NCBI GenBank assembly: GCA_018648805.1
Contig: JABGQM010000014.1
Span: forward strand, 1-64,000
Direction: 5' to 3'
DNA length: 64,000 nt
From: Verrucomicrobiota bacterium
GTDB lineage: Bacteria > Verrucomicrobiota > Kiritimatiellia > UBA8416 > JABMPJ01
Shown here: piece by piece, positions 8,075 through 22,918 of the stretch
How positions within the stretch are numbered: the first letter of the stretch is position 1
Layout of the letters: each line of letters opens with the position of its first letter
Position numbers and translations under genes: made by a program
Notes under the pieces: model-generated
Database searches by the model: none
The model's input: only the letters and a program-made list of their open reading frames with translations
What the model was told of the DNA's origin: nothing

Positions 8075-10852
8075 TCACGGCTGACCCCGATCGCCTTTCT
8101 TTCGCAGCCTGGCTCGTCGGGCGACGGAGTCGCCGCCTTGGATAGGTGTTGCTGTGGGCGGGACAGGTGGTGGTGGGGCCTTCTTTTTCTCTGCAGGCGA
8201 GGCTAGCTTGCGGCGCAGTTTGCGCGATAGCGGGTCGGCGGCATGACGTATGGCGCTATGCTGAGAGCGACGGGCGGCGTCAGCCTGCCCCAGTGTATCC
8301 TCAGATTCGGCGCGCGGACCGACCTGTGGCTTGAGGTCGATCACATGATCCACACTCTGCATGGGATGCCGCGATCGCTCCAGCTTGCGAAGCAGTAGCT
8401 CGCGTGTTCTCCGATCGAGCGGCATACGGTTGGGTTCGGTCAGGCGTGGTTTATCGACGATGGAGGGCAGGAAGGACTGTCCGCGCTTTTGGCGGGAGGA
8501 GGTCAGTAGCTTGACCGATTCGGCGGCGCTGTCTCCTCTCAGTATAGCGTTAAGCACAACCACTGCGGCGCGTCTACTGTAGGGACCGCCGCCTTCGCCG
8601 AGCTCAATATTGCGCACGTGGTAGGGCGTAATGATGCGCGAGGTGCAGTTCGGGCATCCATCATCGCAGTCACAGGTCAGCAGATGCTCGAGGGCGGTTG
8701 CCAGAATCGTTTCCATGCGATCGAAGCACTGTTCAGAGTTGCCGATGCCGTGCAGGTAGAATTCAAACCAGAACATCGTGTGCCATTCCGCATTGCGGCA
8801 GCCCAGCGACCAGTCAAAGTCGTTCATGTCGCAGGTAAGGAAGAGGGGTAGGATGCGGCTGACACAGTAAAGAATGCCGCGCATTCCCGATTCCGGATTG
8901 AGGTCAACACGCCTGACCTGCTCGGGCAACTCGGGCGGCGCGGTGAGCCAGAAGGCCATGGCTTCGTAGGCGATAGAGGGCAGGCCGGTGGGGTGCTGGG
9001 AAATTCTATCCAGAGAATAGAACCGCACCTTTTCGTAGATGGGCGTATTGAGCACGGCGTAGACCTCGCCCAGGTGTGCCTGCCCCGTCCCCAGCGGACG
9101 CTGCTCAAGGATGTGATCGATATGGTCAACCGCTGTGCCGGTCACAGGATCGGTATAGTATGAGACGTCCACCTTCTTCACGGTGACAAGATTGCGCTCG
9201 GTGTCATGATCGACCATGGCGTAGGTGTCGCCGCGGTGAAAATAGATCGCGCCGTCATAGAAGAGACGCATGGCGCGGAACTTATCCATCCGGTCGATAA
9301 TGCGGCCGGTGTTCACATCCGTTATCACCGTGCTCTCGTCGCCGTACCCGCGCAGGCGGACCTCGGGCGCCGGCGCTTCCTTGGCGGCATGATACCAGGC
9401 GTCCTGATGATGGGTGATCTTCTTGTTTTCTTCGAGTACCTCCAGGATGAGTGGCGCGGCGTAGCCGAAGAGGGTGACGTCCTTCTGGGTGACGGGCAGT
9501 TCGGCGGACGCGCAGCGCATGTGACCCAAAACCACGAAGGGGTTGTCACGGTCGATGACGACGCGCTCGATGGGTCGATCAAACACATACTGGGGGTGCT
9601 GCATGATGTACTGGTTGATCGGTGTATCAATGCCCACCAGGATACAAAGCGAATCGGACTGCCCGCGTCCGGCACGCCCGGCTTGCTGCATGAAGGCGCT
9701 GAGCAGGCCGGGATAGCCCACAATGATACAGGCATCCAGCATGCCAATATCGATGCCCAGCTCGAGTGCACGCGTGGCGCTTACCCCAAGCAGCTTGCCC
9801 TGACGGAGGCCGTCCTCCATCTCGCGCCGCTCTTCGGCTGAGTAACCACCACGGTAGGGGATCACCTGATCGGCCAGTCCGGATCCACTGGCCTTGAGGC
9901 TATCGCGCACATAGCGGTAGATCATTTCGGCCGTATTGCGTGCCTTGCTGAAGCAGATGGTGGGGGTTCGTTGCATGACCAACTTCGTCATCAGCTCATG
10001 GGCTTCCACGTTGGCGCTACGTCGGCCGCGCCACTTCCGGGTCTTGATGCGGGGCGGATTCCAGAAGACGAACGTGCGCGAACCGGACGCGCTGGTATTG
10101 CTGTCGATCAGCCGGAAAGGCTTGCCGGTCAGCAGCTCGGCGACCTGATCCGGATTTCCCATAGTTGCCGAGCAGCAGACGTACTGCGGGTTGCCACCGT
10201 AGTGCTCGCAGAGCCGCCCTAAGCGGCGGAGCACGTTAGCCATGTTGGCGCCGAAGAAACCGGTGTAGGTGTGGACCTCATCGATGACGATGAATTTGAG
10301 CCCGCGCAGGAATCGCAGCCAGCGTCCATGACCCGGGATCATGTTGCTATGAATCATCTCTGGATTCGTGACCAGCAGGCGGGACGAATCACGCGCGGTG
10401 CGCCGATCGGCGGCGCTGGAATCGCCATCATATGGAATGGCCAGAAGAGAGCGAGGCTCCACAATGCCCGGTATGCTGAGGACGCCGTTGTTCCAGGCGA
10501 CGGCCTGATCGCGCGCCAGCGCCTTCGCCGGAAAGACCATCAGTGCCGTAGCCTCGGGATCATCGAGCATCGTCTGCAGAATAGGGAGCTGATAGCAGAG
10601 ACTCTTGCCGCTGGCGGTGCCTGAGGAGAGGATCACGTTCTCGCCCTTGAGCAGGGCTTCGACGGCCTCCGCCTGGTGCTGATATAGACGCGCTAGATTC
10701 AGCCCCTTCAGAAAAGCGTCGCAGCTCGGGTGCAGGCCGTCGGGGAGCTCTGCAAACACGGCCTCGCGCGGTGGCTGGGTATGGATGTGCGCGATCTGGT
10801 CCTTGTAGTCTGGATCTTTAGTCAGACCATCGAGAAACAGTTTTACGTCCAC
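8075..10852 (-). CDS. MrfA-type DEAH helicase, paralogue 1
   Basis: This is a superfamily 2 helicase of the MrfA/YprA type with a C-terminal DUF1998/MZB region. I choose a GTG start at 10852 (VDVKLFLDG), because AGAAAGGAG lies 6 bases upstream and overlaps the stop of the preceding gene; the open frame upstream (to 10912) is probably not translated. Visible motifs are GTASGKS (residues 78-84), DEVH (191-194), SAT (228-230) and the motif VI stretch QQAGRAGRG. A metal-binding cluster CDCDDGCPNC lies near residues 727-737. Beyond it is an extra ~190-residue basic, proline-rich tail (AEKKKAPPPPVPP) absent from the neighbouring paralogue. It is the last gene of a four-gene operon and is probably translationally coupled. 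A role in DNA repair is inferred from B. subtilis MrfA. Confidence 0.85.
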   Translation of the reverse strand: MDVKLFLDGLTKDPDYKDQIAHIHTQPPREAVFAELPDGLHPSCDAFLKGLNLARLYQHQAEAVEALLKGENVILSSGTASGKSLCYQLPILQTMLDDPEATALMVFPAKALARDQAVAWNNGVLSIPGIVEPRSLLAIPYDGDSSAADRRTARDSSRLLVTNPEMIHSNMIPGHGRWLRFLRGLKFIVIDEVHTYTGFFGANMANVLRRLGRLCEHYGGNPQYVCCSATMGNPDQVAELLTGKPFRLIDSNTSASGSRTFVFWNPPRIKTRKWRGRRSANVEAHELMTKLVMQRTPTICFSKARNTAEMIYRYVRDSLKASGSGLADQVIPYRGGYSAEERREMEDGLRQGKLLGVSATRALELGIDIGMLDACIIVGYPGLLSAFMQQAGRAGRGQSDSLCILVGIDTPINQYIMQHPQYVFDRPIERVVIDRDNPFVVLGHMRCASAELPVTQKDVTLFGYAAPLILEVLEENKKITHHQDAWYHAAKEAPAPEVRLRGYGDESTVITDVNTGRIIDRMDKFRAMRLFYDGAIYFHRGDTYAMVDHDTERNLVTVKKVDVSYYTDPVTGTAVDHIDHILEQRPLGTGQAHLGEVYAVLNTPIYEKVRFYSLDRISQHPTGLPSIAYEAMAFWLTAPPELPEQVRRVDLNPESGMRGILYCVSRILPLFLTCDMNDFDWSLGCRNAEWHTMFWFEFYLHGIGNSEQCFDRMETILATALEHLLTCDCDDGCPNCTSRIITPYHVRNIELGEGGGPYSRRAAVVVLNAILRGDSAAESVKLLTSSRQKRGQSFLPSIVDKPRLTEPNRMPLDRRTRELLLRKLERSRHPMQSVDHVIDLKPQVGPRAESEDTLGQADAARRSQHSAIRHAADPLSRKLRRKLASPAEKKKAPPPPVPPTATPIQGGDSVARRARLRKKGDRGQP

Positions 10853-10865
10853 GTGGCGCTCCTTT

Positions 10866-13196
10866 CTACAGGAGCGCATCCAGGAGAAAGATGGCGGCGG
10901 CCTTGTCGGCAATGCGCCCGCGTACGGACGAGTCGAGATCGGTCATGGCTGACGGCGACACAGCGGAGCCCACACAGGAGGGGCAGCCGTCAACACAGCC
11001 GCAGTCATGGATGACATCCGAAATGGTGGCCATGATGTTGTCAAACTGATCGAGGCAGCGTCGGGAGAAGCCCATGCCTCCGGGATACCGATCATGGAAG
11101 AAGAGGGCGCTTCTGTTCAGGTTCTTCTCGTCAACCACTACGCCCACGTCCTGCGTATCGCACATGACGAAAAGAGGGGCCACTTCGATAAGCACGTTGG
11201 CAATACCCATCAGGGCTTCACCCATCAGCATGCTGTTGTCGGTCATAGCCTTGGCGACATGCGGTGGTGGCGCATACCAGAAGGACACCGTCTCCAGGAT
11301 CTGGGGCGGCAGTTCGAGCTTCTCGAAGCCCAGGCTATCGCGCGAGTGGAACCGGATCTTCTTGAACATAGGTATGGAGGTGGTGACGGTGACATCACCA
11401 TAGGCCAGCAGGCCGCCCTTCCATTCTTCTTCCGCCTCCGTCTCGTCGATGCGAATCTCTGAGGTCTGAACCGACTGGGTGTAGTAGTCCAACTCCTGCT
11501 TCTTCACAAAAGCGATCTTCTGGTGCATGTCCAGCCGGTCCACAAAATAGGTTTCGGCACCATGCAGGTACACCGCGTGCGTGTGCAGTTGGGACATGGC
11601 ACTGATCTCATCCAGCGTCCCGATGACCCGCTGTCCTTTGGCCTGATCCTGAATGGTGTAGACGGGGCCGGCGATATTGCGCAGGTTGACCGTGGCGGCC
11701 GGGTATTCTGAGCTGGCCCAGTACCAGTTGCCATCGATGTTCTTGATGTTCTGATCCTCTTCGAGCACCTCGATGACGGGTTCGGCATACTCGCCGAACG
11801 CATCAACCTGATCCACCGGGATGGGCAGTTCGTGTGCCGCGCACTTGAGGTGCCCCACGATGATGTGAGGGTTGTTCGGGTCGACGACCGCGTTCTCGGG
11901 GTTCTGGTCGAACAGGTAGTTCGTATGGGCCATAAGGTACTGATCCATGGGTGAGTTTTGGGCCAGCAGAAACACAACCGACTCCTCTATGCCGCGTCCT
12001 GCGCGACCCGCCTGCTGCCACAGGCTGGCAATCGTGCCGGGGTAGCCAACAAGGATGCAGGCTTCAAGGCTCCCGATATCTATGCCCAGTTCCAGAGCAT
12101 TGGTGCTGGATACGCCCAGGATGTCCCGGCTGGCCAGCTTGCGCTCGATTTCACGTCGTTCTTCCGGCAGGTAGCCACCGCGATAGGCGTGGACCGACGC
12201 GGCCAGTTTTCGGGAGACGGGCAAGAGGCGTTCGCGGCAGCCCTTGAAGATCAGCTCTGACGCCAAGCGGGTACGCACGAAGGCAATGGTTTGAATGCCT
12301 TCCTTGACCAATGCGGTAAGCAGCGTAATGGCTTCACCGAGTGGGCTGCGCCGATCTCCGCCGATGCGCCAGTTGGATGCATTCCCGGTGGCCGCGCTCT
12401 TCAGCGGCGGCGGGTTCCACAGGACAAAGCGTTTCGGGCCGTGCGGTGCCCCGTCATTATCGATCAGATCCATTTTGACACCACAGACATCCTCCGCATG
12501 CTTCTGCGGGTTGGCTATGGTCGCGGACGAGCAGATGAACTGTGGTGATGACCCGTAATGACGGCAGATACGTTCAAGACGTCGCATCACATTGGCCAGG
12601 TGTGACCCAAACACGCCGCGATAGGCGTGGACCTCGTCGATGACCACGTAACGCAAGTTGGCGAAAAGTCGGTTCCAGCGTGCATGCTGGGGCAGCATGC
12701 CTTGATGCAGCATGTCGGGGTTCGTGAGGATGATGTTGCCACCATCACGGATCTTGCGCCGCAGATTCTGAGGGGTGTCACCATCATACGTGCCAGCCAG
12801 AAAGGAGATGCCGGAATCCGGCTTCTGGAAGAGGCCCAGGCCGCGCAGCTGGTCCTGAGCCAGTGCTTTGGTGGGGTAGATGAAGAGCATGGTGGCCTTA
12901 TCGTCCTCAAGCAAGGCCTCCATCACGGGCACGGTGTAACAGAGGGTTTTGCCACTGGCGGTGCCTGTGACGATCACAATGTTCTTCTTCTGGCGGACAT
13001 GCTCGATCGCCGTTGCCTGATGCGAGTATAGCTGCTCAATGCCCTGGCCGCTCAGCACGCCCTGCACGGCCGGATGTATGCCGCCCTCGACCTCCTGATA
13101 GCGCGCGTCTCTCGGCGGCAGCGCTTCAACATGGACCATCTGGTTGGAAAAGGATTTCGATCGTCGGGTCTGGGCAATAAATTCTTCGGCATTCAT
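10866..13196 (-). CDS. MrfA-type DEAH helicase, paralogue 2
   Basis: This 776-residue superfamily 2 helicase has the compact length usual for MrfA/YprA. Motifs seen are GTASGKT (78-84), DEVH (187-190), CSSATIANP, GYPGTIASLWQQAGRAGRG and a C-terminal four-cysteine cluster CGCVDGCPSC (residues 732-741), the metal-binding signature of the family. It is clearly homologous to the next gene along its full core, so the pair arose by duplication, but the two have diverged strongly. It starts 41 nt after the RNase H-fold gene, and its stop codon lies 13 nt before the next start, inside that gene's ribosome site. In B. subtilis MrfA works with the exonuclease MrfB in mitomycin-damage repair; the same pairing is inferred here. 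Confidence 0.85.
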   Translation of the reverse strand: MNAEEFIAQTRRSKSFSNQMVHVEALPPRDARYQEVEGGIHPAVQGVLSGQGIEQLYSHQATAIEHVRQKKNIVIVTGTASGKTLCYTVPVMEALLEDDKATMLFIYPTKALAQDQLRGLGLFQKPDSGISFLAGTYDGDTPQNLRRKIRDGGNIILTNPDMLHQGMLPQHARWNRLFANLRYVVIDEVHAYRGVFGSHLANVMRRLERICRHYGSSPQFICSSATIANPQKHAEDVCGVKMDLIDNDGAPHGPKRFVLWNPPPLKSAATGNASNWRIGGDRRSPLGEAITLLTALVKEGIQTIAFVRTRLASELIFKGCRERLLPVSRKLAASVHAYRGGYLPEERREIERKLASRDILGVSSTNALELGIDIGSLEACILVGYPGTIASLWQQAGRAGRGIEESVVFLLAQNSPMDQYLMAHTNYLFDQNPENAVVDPNNPHIIVGHLKCAAHELPIPVDQVDAFGEYAEPVIEVLEEDQNIKNIDGNWYWASSEYPAATVNLRNIAGPVYTIQDQAKGQRVIGTLDEISAMSQLHTHAVYLHGAETYFVDRLDMHQKIAFVKKQELDYYTQSVQTSEIRIDETEAEEEWKGGLLAYGDVTVTTSIPMFKKIRFHSRDSLGFEKLELPPQILETVSFWYAPPPHVAKAMTDNSMLMGEALMGIANVLIEVAPLFVMCDTQDVGVVVDEKNLNRSALFFHDRYPGGMGFSRRCLDQFDNIMATISDVIHDCGCVDGCPSCVGSAVSPSAMTDLDSSVRGRIADKAAAIFLLDALL

Positions 13197-13237: not shown

Positions 13238-14200
13238 CTACTCGACCTCCATCGCCGGAAAGCGATTCATCAGGTCTGCCATGGTGAGCAGATCCAGCAA
13301 GTTATGTTTCAATACATCCACCATCTGCCAGGCGTCTGAGCTACGGACATAGTCGTGATAGGCGTCCGGTATCTCGCTTCCCGGAATATCACCGTGCCGT
13401 CGCCTCTTGCAGATAAATGTCTCAAGGGTCTGCAGTTTACAGTTGGGCAGCCTCTTTTTCCAGATACGTCTGCAGACATGCAGCATATCCAGATGATAGG
13501 GGTCAATCGTGAACGGGACACGTGTGGTGGCGGCCCGGGCGCGAATGTATGGAAAATCGAAGCTCTTGCCATTAAAAGTGATCAGCAGCTTCTTGGCGCT
13601 GCAGGCATCCAGAAAGAAGGCCACGACAGCGGCTTCCTCGGCATAGTTCCGGGCAAAGAACTGCTGGATCTCGAAGACGCTGCCATTCCATATCATGATG
13701 CCGATCAGAAACAGCGGCGAATTGCCCAGCCCGGTGCTTTCAACATCCATGAATATGATGTCTTGTGGTTCGATCCTCGTGGGCGTGCACACGGTATTCA
13801 CTCGCGCAAAGAGACCGGATGTGTCTGTGGCCAGCAGCGCTTTAAAGCGCGTGCTGATCGGCTGTACCGCTTCCAGGTCATCCGCGCGCGTGGTCACCAC
13901 AAATCCCTTGCCATGTGTGTGACGCATCTCCATGCCCTCAATCGACTCCTCGAGGATGACCGGCGGGCCAGTCCGACGTCGGGCTGGTGGGCGAGGGGAC
14001 TGGCGTGGAATGTCGCGGCGGTAGATGATTTCCTGTTCCGGCCCGGCGCTCGGGGGTCTCTGGTGCGACGGGGTCCTCTTGCCTCGCACCGCGCGTCTGA
14101 TTTCATCGCGCGAGATCGGTTTCGCATTCTGATCCGGCCCGTAACCGCGCGCGGCCAGCTGAGCCGCAAGATCGTTACGTGATTTCCTCTTCTCGGGCAT
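13238..14200 (-). CDS. YprB/MrfB-like RNase H-fold 3'-5' exonuclease
   Basis: This 320-residue protein has a low-complexity basic N-terminus (~residues 1-80) and a C-terminal RNase H-like YprB domain (PF13482 type). The DEDD-type acidic residues are visible: D152 and E154 in IIFMDVESTGLG, D215 in ITFNGKSFDFPYI, and H299/D303 in KHNLLDLLTM. The region YHLDMLHVCRRIWKKRLPNC is also typical. The ATG lies 2 nt after the stop of the upstream gene with no clear ribosome site of its own, so it is probably translated by coupling. MrfB (YprB) of B. subtilis is a metal-dependent exonuclease acting with MrfA. Here one such nuclease is encoded beside two MrfA-like helicases. Confidence 0.88.
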   Translation of the reverse strand: MPEKRKSRNDLAAQLAARGYGPDQNAKPISRDEIRRAVRGKRTPSHQRPPSAGPEQEIIYRRDIPRQSPRPPARRRTGPPVILEESIEGMEMRHTHGKGFVVTTRADDLEAVQPISTRFKALLATDTSGLFARVNTVCTPTRIEPQDIIFMDVESTGLGNSPLFLIGIMIWNGSVFEIQQFFARNYAEEAAVVAFFLDACSAKKLLITFNGKSFDFPYIRARAATTRVPFTIDPYHLDMLHVCRRIWKKRLPNCKLQTLETFICKRRRHGDIPGSEIPDAYHDYVRSSDAWQMVDVLKHNLLDLLTMADLMNRFPAMEVE

Positions 14201-14202
14201 GT

Positions 14203-15276
14203 TTAACGGGTCCGTTTCTGCTTCCGCAGTGCACCCAGCACTTTGATGACCCGTTTCCGGTTGACGATCTTGATGTCTATATCGGAGCGGGGGAGTTTCA
14301 GGTCGCCGTCTTCAATCGTGGCCAACAACCCGCGCAGAGCGAACCCCTTCTCAAGGTATGACTGGAGCACCTCTGACTGATGTGCATGGTCCATATAGCG
14401 GCAGAGCTGGTCGTAGGCTGCACGGGTCAGAACGCCCCGCTTCAGTTCAACCAGAATGAGATGCTTCCGCTTGTGGTCGAGGTAGGCCATATCGACGACA
14501 TGCCGTTGGGATTCATCATCATAGACATGAAGCTGTCTGGCCAGTAGCGACACCTTGTTTCGGAACAGCAGGCCGGGTGCCTCCTCAATCGCATCTTCAA
14601 GGTTCTTTTCCGTATCCACCGACTCGTAGTCGCCATTGAGCACCCGGTATATCTGGTCTGCCTTGCGTGCGCCCACACCTTTCATGCTCAGGAGTTCGTC
14701 CTTCGTGGCGTTGACGATGCTTGTGACACTGCCGAAATTCTGTAGGAGATCGCGGGCCATGACCATGCCGCAACCGGGCAGCATCTCGACCAGTCGTCTC
14801 TGCATATCGTCCAGAGAGACCGCCTTGCGTTTGGGGATAAGCGAGATTTCCGGAATGCCGATCTGCTCCTGCCTGGCCATCATGGTGATCAGTTCAAGCG
14901 TATCGTCCGCATCCGCGGTCGCCATGATGTTTATGCCGTAGAGCAGCATCATGGACGAGAGCGCGCCGCGCACGGCTTGCGGATCCATCATGCTGTACTC
15001 GTAGTTCACCTTGCCCTCGAGGATCAGGAGTGGCATCTGGAAATGTTCGCGCATGTAGATGGCGCTGGTGAAGAGGGTCTTTTCCATGATCCCCTTGAGA
15101 AATCCACCCCCCGTTCGGCGTTCGATGACCAGTCTTTTGCTCAGAACGTAGCGTTCCACATTGCCTTCGTCCTCCGTGATGGGGATGATCTGGATGCCGC
15201 GCTCGGCAAGTGCTTTAGCTATCTTACCGTTAGGCTTGGTGGTTGAGACTACCAGCATTGACAGGTCTATAGGCAT
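14203..15276 (-). CDS. ERCC4-like / helix-hairpin-helix / NucS-like nuclease fusion
   Basis: First gene of the repair-type operon, 357 residues from the ATG at 15276; the open frame runs upstream to 15396, so the start is uncertain. Residues ~8-150 resemble an ERCC4 (XPF) nuclease domain: YVLSKRLVIERRTGGGFLKG, then LILEG and a helix ending YGINIMATADADDTLEL. The XPF catalytic signature (GD...ERKxxxD) is degraded: GD is SK, ERK is ERR, and the last D is missing. Residues ~163-213 form a tandem helix-hairpin-helix (LPGCGMVMARDLL; MKGVGARKADQIY). Residues ~245-345 look like a NucS/DUF91-type PD-(D/E)xK domain with D262 (VVDMAY) and E277-L-K279 (LILVELKRG). The C-terminal domain is therefore the likely active nuclease and the front half a DNA-binding scaffold. 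Confidence 0.75.
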   Translation of the reverse strand: MPIDLSMLVVSTTKPNGKIAKALAERGIQIIPITEDEGNVERYVLSKRLVIERRTGGGFLKGIMEKTLFTSAIYMREHFQMPLLILEGKVNYEYSMMDPQAVRGALSSMMLLYGINIMATADADDTLELITMMARQEQIGIPEISLIPKRKAVSLDDMQRRLVEMLPGCGMVMARDLLQNFGSVTSIVNATKDELLSMKGVGARKADQIYRVLNGDYESVDTEKNLEDAIEEAPGLLFRNKVSLLARQLHVYDDESQRHVVDMAYLDHKRKHLILVELKRGVLTRAAYDQLCRYMDHAHQSEVLQSYLEKGFALRGLLATIEDGDLKLPRSDIDIKIVNRKRVIKVLGALRKQKRTR

Positions 15277-15427: not shown

Positions 15428-16252
15428 ATGTCGGAAGCAAACAACCGCAGGGATGAACTCAAGGCGCGCCTGAACGCCATCATCTTCGGTGCCGATACCC
15501 CTTTGGGACGCGCCTATGATATCGCGCTGCTCGCCGTCATCGGCGTCAGCGTGCTGATGGTGATGCTCGACAGTGTGGCCGCCCTGCACGCGGAGTATGG
15601 CCGCTTCTTCTACGCCATTGAATGGGGCTTCACGATCTTCTTCACGCTGGAGTACCTGATCCGGCTCTGGTGTGGAGAGAACGCCCGACGCTACGCGTTC
15701 AGCTTCTTCGGCATGGTAGACATTCTGGGGGTAATCCCCACCTACCTCGGCCTGCTGTTCCACGGCAGCCGCTTCCTTGTGGCTATCCGTTTTCTGCGCA
15801 TGTTGCGCGTGTTCCGCGTGATGAAGCTATCCTCTTATGAAGGTGAGCTGCGGGCCATGAGCGCCGCCCTGAAGCATAGCCGGCGTCGCATCCTCGTGTT
15901 CCTGTTCTTCGTACTGACCATGGTCGTGGTGCTGGGGGCGCTCATGTATGTCATCGAGGGCGAGGCCAACGGCTTCACCAGTATCCCCACCAGTATCTAC
16001 TGGGCTATCGTCACGCTCACCACCGTCGGCTATGGCGATATCTCCCCCGGCACCCCCCTGGGGCAGTCCATTGCCGCCGTTCTGATGATCCTCGGCTACA
16101 GCATCATCGTCATCCCGACTGGTATCGTATCGGTCGAGGCCGCTCGCGCTGCGCAGGACAGAGCCCCCGCCCCTTGTCCCGCCTGCCGCCGTCCCGGCCA
16201 TGAGACCGATGCCACCCACTGCAAGTTCTGCGGCGCGCGACTGAATACCTAA
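15428..16252 (+). CDS. Kv-type potassium channel with C-terminal zinc ribbon
   Basis: This is a six-helix voltage-gated-type potassium channel of 274 residues. S1 to S3 lie within residues ~30-110, and S4 carries regularly spaced arginines (RFLRMLRVFRVMK, ~121-133). S5, a pore helix and the selectivity filter TVGYGD (199-204) follow, then S6. After S6 there is a short linker and a four-cysteine zinc ribbon (C250, C253, C265, C268; CPAC...CKFC), which is unusual for a channel tail and might sense metal or redox state or aid assembly. It is transcribed divergently from the ERCC4-NucS gene and converges on ilvD. Confidence 0.9.
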   Translation: MSEANNRRDELKARLNAIIFGADTPLGRAYDIALLAVIGVSVLMVMLDSVAALHAEYGRFFYAIEWGFTIFFTLEYLIRLWCGENARRYAFSFFGMVDILGVIPTYLGLLFHGSRFLVAIRFLRMLRVFRVMKLSSYEGELRAMSAALKHSRRRILVFLFFVLTMVVVLGALMYVIEGEANGFTSIPTSIYWAIVTLTTVGYGDISPGTPLGQSIAAVLMILGYSIIVIPTGIVSVEAARAAQDRAPAPCPACRRPGHETDATHCKFCGARLNT

Positions 16253-16380: not shown

Positions 16381-18096
16381 CTACAACTCCGCGTCGGTCA
16401 CGGCGCCCCGGGAGGCGGGGCCGACCTGGGCGGCGTACTTGGCGAGGACCCCACGGGTATAGCGCGGACGCGGCGGTTTCCACGCTTTGCGGCGTCGTTT
16501 CAGCTCAGCGGCCGACACGGCCAGGTCGAGGGTGCGCTTGACGGCGTCGATGCGGATTACATCGCCATTCTTGACCAGCGCCAGCGGACCGCCGGCGGCG
16601 GCTTCGGGTGTGATATGACCGACCACGAGGCCGTGACTCCCGCCCGAAAAGCGACCGTCTGTGATGAGGGCCACGTCCTTGCCTAACCCCCTGCCCATCA
16701 CAGCCGACGTCGGTGAGAGCATCTCGCGCATGCCGGGACCGCCGCGCGGACCTTCGTGGCGGATCACGATGACGTGACCCTTCCTGATCCGGCCGTCGAG
16801 GATCGCGGCGAGGGCTTTTTCCTCGGAGTTGTAGACGCGGGCCTTGCCTTCGAACGTGAGCCCTTCCTTGCCGGATATCTTGGCCACCGCGCCTTCGGGC
16901 GCCAGGTTGCCGTACAGGATCACGAGGTGCCCCTCGCGCTTGAGCGGATCGCTGAAGGGACGAATGATCTGCTGCTGCTTCGGGTAGGGCCGAACGTCCG
17001 CCAGGTTTTCGGAGAGCGTCTTGCCGGTAACGGTCAGGCAGCTGCCGTCCAGCAAGCCCTCATCCAGCATGGCCTTCATCAGGGGGACAGTGCCCCCGAT
17101 TTTGACCAGATCCGCCATGACATACGTGCCGCTGGGTTTGAGATCGGCCACCACGGGCGTTCGCTTGCCCACGCGGGTAAAATCATCCAGGGAGAGCTTG
17201 ACCTTCGCGGCATGCGCCATGGCCAGCAGGTGCAGCACCGCGTTGGTCGAACCGCCCAGGGCCGTGACCACGGCGATAGCGTTCAGAAAAGCCCGGCGCG
17301 TCATGATATCGCGTGGGGTGATGCCTTGTTCGATCAGGCCCAGCACCGCCGCGCCGGCATTGACGCAGTCCGTGGTCTTGCGGCGCGAAACGGCCGCCTG
17401 CGCCGAACTGTTGGGCAGACTCATTCCGAGCGCTTCAATGGCCGAGGCCATCGTGTTGGCGGTATACATCCCTCCGCACGATCCGGGTCCGGGGATGGCG
17501 CAGCACTCGATATCGTGAAGCTCCTTGTCGTCGACGTCACCGCGGGCATGCCGGCCGACCGCCTCGAACACGCTGACGATATCGACGTCCTTGCCCTTGT
17601 GTTTGCCGGGCAGAATCGTTCCGCCGTAGACAAAGACGGCGGGACGGTTCAGACGTGCAATGGCGATCATGCACCCGGGCATGTTCTTGTCACAACCGCC
17701 GATGGCCACGACGCCGTCCATGGCTTCACAGCCGACCACTGTTTCGATCGAGTCGGCGATAACCTCGCGCGATACGAGAGAGTACTTCATTCCCTCGGTA
17801 CCCATCGAAATGCCATCGGAGATCGTGATCGTGTTGAAAATGATCGCCTTGCCGCCGGCTTGGTCGACGCCCCGCGCCACGGCACGGGCCAACCTGTCGA
17901 TATGCATGTTGCACGGTGTGACCATGCTCCAGGTTGAGGCGATACCGATCTGCGACCGTGTCAGATCCTCGTCCGAGAACCCGACCGCATGCAGCATGGC
18001 GCGGCTGGCGGCGCGTTCTACCCCTTCGGTGACGGCCGAAGAATAGCGACGGTGATCACCGGCACTCCGTGGCTCCGCTGAACGCTTCGTGGCCAT
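16381..18096 (-). CDS. ilvD: Dihydroxy-acid dehydratase
   Basis: This is IlvD, which dehydrates 2,3-dihydroxy-isovalerate and 2,3-dihydroxy-3-methylvalerate in valine, leucine and isoleucine synthesis (also feeding pantothenate). At 571 residues it has family length. The iron-sulfur and active-site segments are visible: TPCNMH, GGCDKNMPGC and GPGSCGGMYTANTM. The C-terminal TDGRFSGGSHGL and GHITPEAAAGGPLA blocks are also present. A GAGGAG ribosome site lies 6 bases before the ATG. No other branched-chain amino-acid genes are nearby. Confidence 0.96.
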   Translation of the reverse strand: MATKRSAEPRSAGDHRRYSSAVTEGVERAASRAMLHAVGFSDEDLTRSQIGIASTWSMVTPCNMHIDRLARAVARGVDQAGGKAIIFNTITISDGISMGTEGMKYSLVSREVIADSIETVVGCEAMDGVVAIGGCDKNMPGCMIAIARLNRPAVFVYGGTILPGKHKGKDVDIVSVFEAVGRHARGDVDDKELHDIECCAIPGPGSCGGMYTANTMASAIEALGMSLPNSSAQAAVSRRKTTDCVNAGAAVLGLIEQGITPRDIMTRRAFLNAIAVVTALGGSTNAVLHLLAMAHAAKVKLSLDDFTRVGKRTPVVADLKPSGTYVMADLVKIGGTVPLMKAMLDEGLLDGSCLTVTGKTLSENLADVRPYPKQQQIIRPFSDPLKREGHLVILYGNLAPEGAVAKISGKEGLTFEGKARVYNSEEKALAAILDGRIRKGHVIVIRHEGPRGGPGMREMLSPTSAVMGRGLGKDVALITDGRFSGGSHGLVVGHITPEAAAGGPLALVKNGDVIRIDAVKRTLDLAVSAAELKRRRKAWKPPRPRYTRGVLAKYAAQVGPASRGAVTDAEL

Positions 18097-20017: not shown

Positions 20018-22918
20018 ATGAGAGAACGATCTGTAACCAGGGGCGTGGTGCTCGCCGTCGGGGTAGGGGGGCTGACGGCCCTCTTGCTCTCCGGCTGTGC
20101 GTCGACCAGCATGAAGGGCACCCCGCTCTATACGGGCGAGTATGAGACGCGTGAGGGACCCGTCGAAGAGCGGGTCAATATCTGGCCGCTGTTCTACTAC
20201 CGCAAGCCGGCGCTCTCGATTCTCTGGCCGCTGGTCGAGGTGACCGATGCCCACCTGGCCGTGCGCCCGATCTACTCAATGCATGGACGCGACCAGGAGA
20301 AGGCCGTTCACAACGTCTTGTGGCCTCTTGCGAGGTTCAACAATCAGACCGGCAACCACCGCATCTTTCCGGTCTTCTGGGGCAAGAATTACTGCACGGC
20401 CTTTCCCCTCTACTGGCACGTTCGCACTGCCGACAGCGTCTCCGATACACTCTTTCCGCTCTGGTCGCACTACCGCCGTGGTGGGGAACACAGTACCCAC
20501 GCCCTATGGCCGTTCCTGCATCGACGGAATCTGGATGGCTGTTCCGGCGGTCGGGTCTTCCCGCTCTATGGCCATTATCAACGTGGTGAGCGTGATCGCC
20601 GTTTTTTTGCCTGGCCCCTCGGACACCAGTGGTCCGATACGGGCAGCGAGAGCGGGGGCAGCATGCTGTTCCCCTTCTACTATCATAACCAGAAACCGAA
20701 CGCGTCGACCTTCCTGTCGCTGCCCTATTCGCGGGCCCGCAAGCCGGATGGCTCGGGATGGGACCTCGCGCCGCCATTTGTGTTCCGCTCGGACGACCCC
20801 AAGCGTTCGACCTTCCTGACACCGCTCTATATGAAAGGTGCGAATAAGCAGAAGGCGTCGGACTGGTCCCTGCTGTTTCCGCTCTACTACCGCAGCAACT
20901 CAGCCCAGGGAAGCCTGTTGGCCGGTCTCCCCGGGGCGCGCTGGAAAGAGGGCAACACATCGGGGTGGATGATCTTTCCTCTGCTGGCCGGCGGCGAGTC
21001 CACTCCCGAGCAGGGCCAATACTGGGGCCTCGGACCGCTCATGCATAAGGGATGGGATGCCGACTCATCATCCAGCCATATCTTCCCTTTCTACTATCGT
21101 ACCCGCACAGCGGACCGTTCCTTTCTGCTGTCGCTGCCGTGGAGCAGCGGGCGGTCCGCGGATGGCAGCTCATGGCAGATGGTGCCGCCACTGCTCTTCA
21201 GGGAGAAACGAGCGGACGGGACCTCCTATGTGACCGTGCTCTTCTACTGGAACAGCGAAACCAGGACCTTTGTCTCGCCGCTCTATGCACGCTTCAGCAG
21301 CGGGCAGGCTGACTATACGGCCGTGCCGCCTCTGCTCTCCTGGCATGTGCGGGATGAGAAGCGGAGCGATCTCTGGGGCGCCGGCGGACTGATGCACTTC
21401 AGCTGGGGGGAGCAGCCCGGCGCCCAGCACGTTTTGCCGCTTTTCTATCGCAATCCGCAGACCGGACTCTTTGTCTCGCTCCCCTTCGCCCAATGGCAGT
21501 CGGATTCCGGCCGCAAAACGGCGGTCGTCCCCCCCCTGCTGAGCTGGTTGTCGCGTGGCAGCGAGAAGAGCGACCTCTGGCTGGCGGGCCCCCTGGCGCA
21601 TTTTAGCTGGGGTGAGAAGGCTACGGCACAGCATGTATTCCCGCTCTTCTATCACAACCGTAAGAGCGGGACTGTCGTCTCGCCTCTGTGGGCGCGTTGG
21701 CATCCGAGCACCAACCGCACCACCACCGTTGTACCTCCACTTCTCAGTTGGAAGGAGACGCGGAAAGACCGTAGCGATCTCTGGATGGTGGGCCCACTGG
21801 CGCATTTCAGCTGGGGTGAGAAAGCCGCGGCACAGCATATCTTCCCGCTCTACTACTACAACCGCACGAGCGGCACCTTTGTTTCGCCCCTGTGGGCCTC
21901 CTGGCGCGAGGGCCGTCGCGATATCAAGGTCGTGCCGCCGCTCCTCTCGTGGCATACGGCCAAAGGGGACGAAGAATCGCTGACCGCCCTGCTGGGACTT
22001 TTCCGTCAGCAGTGGGGGGGCGACAAGCCGAAGCAGGGCCATCTCTTCCCGCTCTATAGCTACACGGGAGATAAGCGCCTCCTGACCCCTCTGTTCGGGT
22101 GGGACAAGGATCCCCGGAATGGGTACTACTATCCTCTCACACCACTCTATGGCCGGCGGCGCGGGGAGAACACCGGTTCATGGCTGTTCCCGCTCTACTC
22201 ACACAAGTACCATACCCAACGCGATGAGCACAGCGGCACGTTCCTGTGGGGGAACTACCGCGCCACAGCGGCACGGACCCGCTCGCAGCTGCCTGGCGTG
22301 TTTACCTATCGCAACGTCCACGAACCCGCGCCGGAGCTGCTGACAACCCGGCAGTATGCCACCTACGGCAAGGCCTTTGATGCGCTGCTCCTCTATAGCT
22401 ACCGCAATCAGCTGAAGGTTCGGCCGGATCGACCGGACCCCGATCAGCCGGATGTATCCCCACCGCCCCGCCTGACCGACTACCGCAAGAACCGGCTCTT
22501 CCCGCTGTGGAGTGCCTCGCACCGCACCGATAGAGTGAGTGGCGCGGTCGACTCCAAGCGGTCGCTCCTGTTGGCACTCTACGACCACATGCACGAGCGC
22601 TCAGCGGCCACAACCGATACCGATCAGGCGGCCGACGACTACACCCGTGCGCGCGTGCTCTGGCGCCTGTGGCACTATGAGCGCCTCAATGGTGATGTCA
22701 GTGTGGACATCTTCCCCGGGATCACCTACGACCGCAAAACCGACGGATTCAAAAAGGTCTCCTTCCTCTGGCGCCTCTTCCGCTATGAGAAGGGCCCCCA
22801 AGGCAAGAAACTCGACCTGCTCTTCATCCCGCTCATGCGCAAGAAAGCAGAGGGGGAGGCACTGAATGACCGCCTACCCAAACCGGGCGACCTCGAGTCT
22901 GACTCGGACCCGTGCTAG
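20018..22918 (+). CDS. Large lipoprotein of aromatic FPLYY/PLLSW repeats
   Basis: This 966-residue protein has a lipoprotein signal: a hydrophobic stretch, then LLLSGC with the lipidated cysteine at ~27. Nearly the whole mature chain consists of repeats built on short aromatic strands such as (I/V)FPLYY, VSPLWA.W, VVPPLLSW and GPLAHFSWGEK. In the centre the units are clean, with a period of about 68 residues (for example from VFPLFYHNRKSGT to IFPLYYYNRTSGT). Towards both ends the period shortens and the repeats degrade. Each unit would give several short beta strands, suggesting a propeller or solenoid in the periplasm or on the outer membrane. I recognise no named family and no catalytic motif. 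It is followed after 54 bp by rph on the same strand. Confidence 0.75.
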   Translation: MRERSVTRGVVLAVGVGGLTALLLSGCASTSMKGTPLYTGEYETREGPVEERVNIWPLFYYRKPALSILWPLVEVTDAHLAVRPIYSMHGRDQEKAVHNVLWPLARFNNQTGNHRIFPVFWGKNYCTAFPLYWHVRTADSVSDTLFPLWSHYRRGGEHSTHALWPFLHRRNLDGCSGGRVFPLYGHYQRGERDRRFFAWPLGHQWSDTGSESGGSMLFPFYYHNQKPNASTFLSLPYSRARKPDGSGWDLAPPFVFRSDDPKRSTFLTPLYMKGANKQKASDWSLLFPLYYRSNSAQGSLLAGLPGARWKEGNTSGWMIFPLLAGGESTPEQGQYWGLGPLMHKGWDADSSSSHIFPFYYRTRTADRSFLLSLPWSSGRSADGSSWQMVPPLLFREKRADGTSYVTVLFYWNSETRTFVSPLYARFSSGQADYTAVPPLLSWHVRDEKRSDLWGAGGLMHFSWGEQPGAQHVLPLFYRNPQTGLFVSLPFAQWQSDSGRKTAVVPPLLSWLSRGSEKSDLWLAGPLAHFSWGEKATAQHVFPLFYHNRKSGTVVSPLWARWHPSTNRTTTVVPPLLSWKETRKDRSDLWMVGPLAHFSWGEKAAAQHIFPLYYYNRTSGTFVSPLWASWREGRRDIKVVPPLLSWHTAKGDEESLTALLGLFRQQWGGDKPKQGHLFPLYSYTGDKRLLTPLFGWDKDPRNGYYYPLTPLYGRRRGENTGSWLFPLYSHKYHTQRDEHSGTFLWGNYRATAARTRSQLPGVFTYRNVHEPAPELLTTRQYATYGKAFDALLLYSYRNQLKVRPDRPDPDQPDVSPPPRLTDYRKNRLFPLWSASHRTDRVSGAVDSKRSLLLALYDHMHERSAATTDTDQAADDYTRARVLWRLWHYERLNGDVSVDIFPGITYDRKTDGFKKVSFLWRLFRYEKGPQGKKLDLLFIPLMRKKAEGEALNDRLPKPGDLESDSDPC

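Follow-up and report, generated by a model that had tools for sequence, protein, structure and literature searches.

An XPF-like protein with a decayed ERCC4 site and a NucS-like nuclease domain, encoded in an operon with MrfAB homologues

The stretch of Verrucomicrobiota DNA analysed here (64,000 nucleotides; hereafter, the window) carries at 14203-15276, on the minus strand, a gene for a 357 aa protein in which an XPF-type ERCC4 domain without its catalytic residues precedes a second, apparently unrelated nuclease domain, and the question is what such a protein does and in which pathway. The answer that we favor, with reasonable but by no means full confidence, is a structure-directed repair endonuclease, most likely working for MrfAB, that combines a dead ERCC4-(HhH)2 scaffold with a cutting NucS-like domain. 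The gene runs from an ATG at 15276 to a TAA at 14205-14203, and its start is backed by an N-terminus common to the orthologues in a 15-row alignment.

Domain architecture

Three domains follow one another in the single chain, all encoded on the minus strand: ERCC4 (about residues 9-138; 14863-15252), a tandem helix-hairpin-helix (HhH; about residues 160-216; 14629-14799), and a PD-(D/E)xK nuclease domain with NucS as its nearest relative (residues 217-357; 14206-14628). Pfam ERCC4 matched residues 18-133 at 50.3 bits (cut-off 24, E 3.1e-13) and HHH_5 matched residues 163-211 at 35.2 bits (cut-off 27, E 1.7e-8); the NCBIfam models for the Hef nuclease C-terminus (1.4e-46) and archaeal Xpf (8e-25) were also hit, both far below their whole-protein cut-offs. 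With the single sequence as the query, the top relative in the PDB was Aeropyrum pernix XPF (6e-21, residues 17-217), with FANCM and FAAP24 likewise matched, and a 15-sequence profile reached XPF at 1e-35 and FANCM at 2e-11. The original prediction had called the N-terminal half ERCC4-like and proposed profile searches as the check, and the Pfam and PDB XPF matches are significant.

An AlphaFold model from 15 sequences (mean pLDDT 91, pTM 0.54), which superseded one from 7 sequences (pLDDT 69), supports the predicted ERCC4 and HhH folds. In Foldseek, the ERCC4 part aligned with the Hef nuclease domain 1j24 (TM 0.85 by target, 2.2 A) and the HhH part with the Hef HhH structure 1x2i (TM 0.96 by target, 0.9 A, 38% identity). 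The individual domains of this single-chain prediction can be relied upon; at a pTM of 0.54, their relative placing cannot. By domain homology the window protein belongs to the XPF/ERCC4 superfamily, the ERCC4 and HhH assignments being clear, and both ends of the fusion fall into superfamilies that are already known. ERCC4 followed by tandem HhH is also the order of the archaeal XPF/Hef C-terminus, but the window protein lacks the catalytic D/D/K/D, has the extra C-terminal PD-(D/E)xK domain, and has no helicase domain in the chain.

Operon and proposed role

The gene, which we refer to as the pseudo-XPF gene, is the first of four in a co-directional operon on the minus strand. Behind it, with successive gaps of 2, 41, and 13 nt, lie genes for a MrfB-like DEDD 3'-5' exonuclease (13238-14200; Pfam RNase_H_2 8e-36, PDB 8un9 MrfB 3.3e-19), a MrfA/YprA-like helicase, MrfA1 (10866-13196; PDB 6znp YprA 1.8e-194, with the MZB zinc domain and WHD_HRQ1 in Pfam), and a second MrfA-like helicase, MrfA2 (8075-10852; PDB 6znp 4.4e-158), which has a GTG start with AAGGAG upstream. 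An MZB-domain MrfA and a DEDD MrfB are encoded together, which meets our test for a MrfAB operon. This operon is the most informative part of the locus and was absent from the original prediction. In B. subtilis, MrfAB, a repair system for mitomycin damage, acts independently of UvrABC, with MrfA as the helicase and MrfB as the 3'-5' exonuclease, and its other partners are stated to be unknown (PMC11194089). Homologues of both B. subtilis genes (YprA/YprB) are present together in this operon of the window, which differs in adding the pseudo-XPF/NucS-like protein and in having two MrfA helicases. No pseudo-XPF/NucS-like component of MrfAB is reported in PMC11194089 or PMC12458937, and the main text of a 2025 survey of the YprA family mentions neither ERCC4, XPF, nor NucS. 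Our literature search covered few subscription papers; within it, we found no incising nuclease described for MrfAB and no description of an ERCC4-NucS fusion or of its link to MrfAB, the latter being weak evidence of absence. Two further genes of the window may be recorded here. The divergent neighbor at 15428-16252, whose upstream region is common with that of the operon, resembles, with its TVGYGD filter, a voltage-gated potassium channel, and the 966 aa product of 20018-22918, with many degenerate LFPLxYxxR..SPLxA repeats and a lipoprotein-like N-terminus, remains unidentified.

The Armatimonadota genome G1150 has its pseudo-XPF gene between MrfA2 and MrfA1. Carriers G413 and G411 have MrfB-MrfA2-MrfA1 clusters without pseudo-XPF, whose gene sits on a separate contig, and in carriers other than the window and G1150 the gene mostly does not adjoin mrfA or mrfB. 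The MrfA1 gene beside pseudo-XPF in G1150 (L086:5859-8560) seems to be frame-shifted near its N-terminus, either through an assembly error or because the gene is disrupted. An MZB helicase was found in 14/14 carrier genomes tested; the controls gave 123/151 genomes of Armatimonadota and 17/115 of the window's own phylum, several of the latter lying on very long frames and probably representing other MZB proteins. Given how widespread MrfA is in Armatimonadota, its joint presence with the pseudo-XPF gene carries weight chiefly in the window's phylum. MrfB was strongly found in 5/6 carriers tested. The tandem MrfA/YprA pair with MrfB (8075-13196) resembles pairs in G413, G411, and G915-G917, which suggests that a two-helicase variant of MrfAB exists; within Armatimonadota, about 5/10 carriers have the second helicase, as against 24/291 genomes overall (p 5e-4, kinship uncorrected; counts classified by hand at an identity of at least 43%).

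What follows on mechanism is inference, covering dimerisation, nuclease activity, substrate, pathway role, and the order of steps; there are no biochemical data, and the model is of a single chain. XPF and NucS each dimerise, so a homodimer is probable, and with its ERCC4 and HhH parts it would grip DNA that is branched, unwound, or adducted, leaving D262, E277, and K279, with a divalent metal, to nick or cut the DNA so held. The pseudo-XPF protein would incise, the MrfA helicases would unwind, and MrfB would trim from the 3' end. An exonuclease of course requires a DNA end, and the incision step is the most economical place for the pseudo-XPF protein. A dead ERCC4 domain serving as a DNA platform has a precedent in FANCM, whose pseudonuclease domain binds dsDNA (PMC12263834). 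More specifically, and only tentatively, the protein could be the damage-incision endonuclease of the MrfAB pathway, with the dead ERCC4 domain as a DNA clamp and a transplanted NucS-like cutter, partly analogous to eukaryotic crosslink repair by XPF and Hrq1. In any event, it gives the UvrABC-independent MrfAB excision pathway, whose partner is unknown, a concrete candidate that can be tested.

It is conceivable, if unlikely, that the nuclease is real and the operon a chance or loose grouping, the protein acting instead in mismatch repair or in general flap or fork processing like NucS/EndoMS. The nuclease domain is indeed nearest to NucS, the gene is unlinked to mrfAB in most carriers, no canonical NucS exceeds the Pfam cut-off in the carriers, and one Poribacterium has an endonuclease III-like HhH-GPD gene (L038:5463-6119) about 2 kb downstream of its orthologue. 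However, mismatch recognition by NucS depends on an N-terminal domain of its own that this protein lacks, and a chance grouping has to contend with the operon junction of only 2 nt to mrfB, with the independent case of G1150, where the gene is flanked by two mrfA genes, and with the rarity of MrfA in the window's phylum.

The C-terminal nuclease domain

The residues D262, E277, K279, Q290, and Y294 are invariant in 15/15 sequences of the alignment, the window protein included. The first three form the putative catalytic D262 ... E277-x-K279 (14440-14493, minus strand), with L278 between E277 and K279 in the window protein. The equivalent residues of P. abyssi NucS are D160, E174, K176, Q187, and Y191 (PMC7343888), so that the spacing of D-E-K-Q-Y is 15-2-11-4 here and 14-2-11-4 there. 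In the preceding helix, E223 and E227 are also invariant, and the alignment is ambiguous as to which of them corresponds to NucS E127. NucS/EndoMS thus resembles the window protein in having a C-terminal PD-(D/E)xK domain with D-ExK-Q-Y at nearly equal spacing, whereas its N-terminal mismatch-binding domain is missing from the window protein, which has ERCC4-HhH in that place.

Database matches to NucS are weak. NCBIfam NucS (NF003270) matches 15/15 members, at best with 1.4e-8 and for the window protein with 5.6e-5 (22.3 bits, where the whole-protein cut-off is 216), and the closest solved relative found by a C-terminal profile in the PDB is NucS 2vld (E 0.0018). Pfam NucS_C matches 13/15 members only at E values of up to 0.1 (best 1.5e-4), and whole-genome scans of 14 carrier genomes returned no NucS_C match over the Pfam cut-off. 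Pfam YhcG_C scores about equal to NucS_C, each matching most members weakly. Because NucS_C is below its cut-off and YhcG_C matches too, we call the domain NucS-like: as judged from sequence, it is a PD-(D/E)xK domain with NucS as its nearest relative, not a strict NucS member. The original prediction of a NucS-type nuclease accordingly stands for its residues (D262, E277, L278, and K279 are as described) and rests, for the family assignment, on weak matches below the NucS_C cut-off.

In the predicted structure, D262 is in strand 258-267 and E277 and K279 are in the next strand, 272-279. D and E-x-K are therefore conserved and on adjacent beta strands, as our test for a PD-(D/E)xK nuclease required, and the clustering of metal-binding residues on two consecutive strands, which had been named as a check that could refute the prediction, is met. 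That the domain cuts DNA is inferred from homology and conservation, without an assay. Alternatively, the C-terminal domain might be merely DNA-binding or structural, and the whole protein a non-catalytic DNA-remodelling cofactor of MrfA, as FAAP24 is to FANCM, for branch migration; FANCM-FAAP24 shows that ERCC4-HhH pairs can be non-catalytic. We consider this doubtful, as D262, E277, K279, Q290, and Y294 are retained without exception in 15 proteins with identities down to 37%, which is typical of an active site.

Loss of the ERCC4 active site

In the homologue alignment, the ERCC4 motif GDx..ERKxxxD corresponds to (E41)R42 ... E52-R53-R54 ... G58 of the window protein (15103-15153, minus strand). 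GD is replaced by E41-R42, K by R54, and the last D by G58, with E52 and R53 retained, and S11 stands in place of the catalytic Asp further upstream (in VDxRE). With S11, R42, E52-R53-R54, and G58, the window protein fails the test for an active XPF/ERCC4 member (D...GD...ERKxxxD). The replacements of GD, K, and the last D had been predicted from the one sequence; they are correct residue by residue, and 14 further orthologues have similar losses. In the fused clade, D11 is present in 0/14, D42 in 0/14 (with arginine in 13), K54 in 1/14, and D58 in 1/14. In contrast, stand-alone homologues have D42, K54, and D58 in 48/48 and D11 in 43/43, a further five being gapped at that position. Position 66 is K in 14/14 fused proteins and G in 45/48 stand-alone proteins; R42 and K66 would suit DNA binding instead of metal binding, but this is an inference, with no binding data.

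Could the ERCC4 domain still cleave through E52-R53 with rearranged metal binding? The fused proteins retain E52 in 12/14 and R53 in 14/14, and one of them, L077, has a D-R-K-x-x-x-D version of the motif. Nevertheless, D11, D42, and D58 are each gone in 13-14/14, and the change of D42 to arginine in 13/14 is a reversal of charge, making residual cleavage very improbable. L077 (L077:1492-2574) is the deepest fused orthologue; the GD aspartate is already arginine in it, and it is a possible intermediate of active-site decay. Because it still has D-R-K-x-x-x-D, the site probably decayed stepwise, after loss of the GD aspartate, although this too is inferred from sequence comparison alone. With its motif half lost, it could serve for studying the sequence in which the residues disappeared.

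Taken with the invariant C-terminal site, the clade-wide loss of the ERCC4 site fits the earlier suggestion of a pseudonuclease scaffold plus a separate nuclease within one chain, for which aligning the active sites of homologues had been the proposed check; that nuclease is, as stated, without an assay. The case is stronger than in the original prediction because the site swap is now documented across the clade and because the operon suggests a pathway. The active site would appear to have moved within a repair nuclease: a fold that recognizes DNA structure was kept, its own chemistry dropped, and another nuclease attached in cis. In eukaryotes the pairing is instead between an active and an inactive subunit of the XPF family. 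ERCC1, EME1, FANCM, and FAAP24 likewise retain ERCC4-HhH as a dead scaffold or DNA-binding unit, but the partner of these inactive subunits supplies an active ERCC4 site or none, whereas the window protein has an unrelated nuclease in cis.

Relatives, distribution, and origin

Fourteen full-length or near-full-length orthologues were found, in Armatimonadota, Poribacteria, and Planctomycetota, with identities to the window protein down to 37%. A genome collection gave six full-length relatives from these three phyla (53-64% identity over the best segment), and Armatimonadota genomes gave eight more, some below 40% identity and one (G1133) split over two contigs. The fused family is rare. Among 392 Planctomycetota genomes sampled, the seed was the only full-length example, accompanied by one match to the C-terminal half; Poribacteria had it in 2/85 genomes, both already known, and Armatimonadota in 10/291. 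In the window's phylum, no other fused gene turned up among about 400 genomes, where stand-alone ERCC4-HhH proteins, mostly of ~230 aa with intact catalytic motifs, were found instead. The stand-alone bacterial proteins (also on Pseudomonas plasmids) are homologous in ERCC4-HhH, but they have an intact site in the 48 examined, no C-terminal nuclease, and a separate branch in the tree.

In a maximum-likelihood tree of the ERCC4-HhH part, the 15 fused proteins form one clade (100/100) apart from the 48 stand-alone proteins. The deepest fused lineages come from Armatimonadota genomes, as does the nearest stand-alone protein, L081 (93/75), whose placement is not firm. The grouping of the window protein with one from Phycisphaerae (98/93) makes it probable, as an inference from the tree, that the window gene was acquired by horizontal transfer. 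For IlvD (16381-18096), beside the operon, the window's own genus and order provide matches at 76-78%, from which the contig appears to be correctly binned. That the fusion is an assembly or binning artifact of a metagenome-assembled genome, as the lack of a second fused gene in those ~400 genomes might hint, is refuted by 14 independent orthologues in other assemblies from three other phyla, and misbinning is countered by the IlvD matches.

Three other candidate origins or affiliations were rejected. For a phage origin, phage records gave no match, and searches of IMG/VR with the single protein and two alignments gave none that was confirmed; for a defense system, PADLOC gave only weak PD-(D/E)xK matches here, and the PDB matches of the helicases are to MrfA/YprA; and for plasmid carriage, the only matches were partial ones to ERCC4-HhH proteins, with query coverage always below 80%. 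XPF-like ERCC4-HhH proteins that lack the NucS-like part do occur on plasmids (157, of which 136 are from Pseudomonas), and the best-scoring among the matches listed are on large plasmids.
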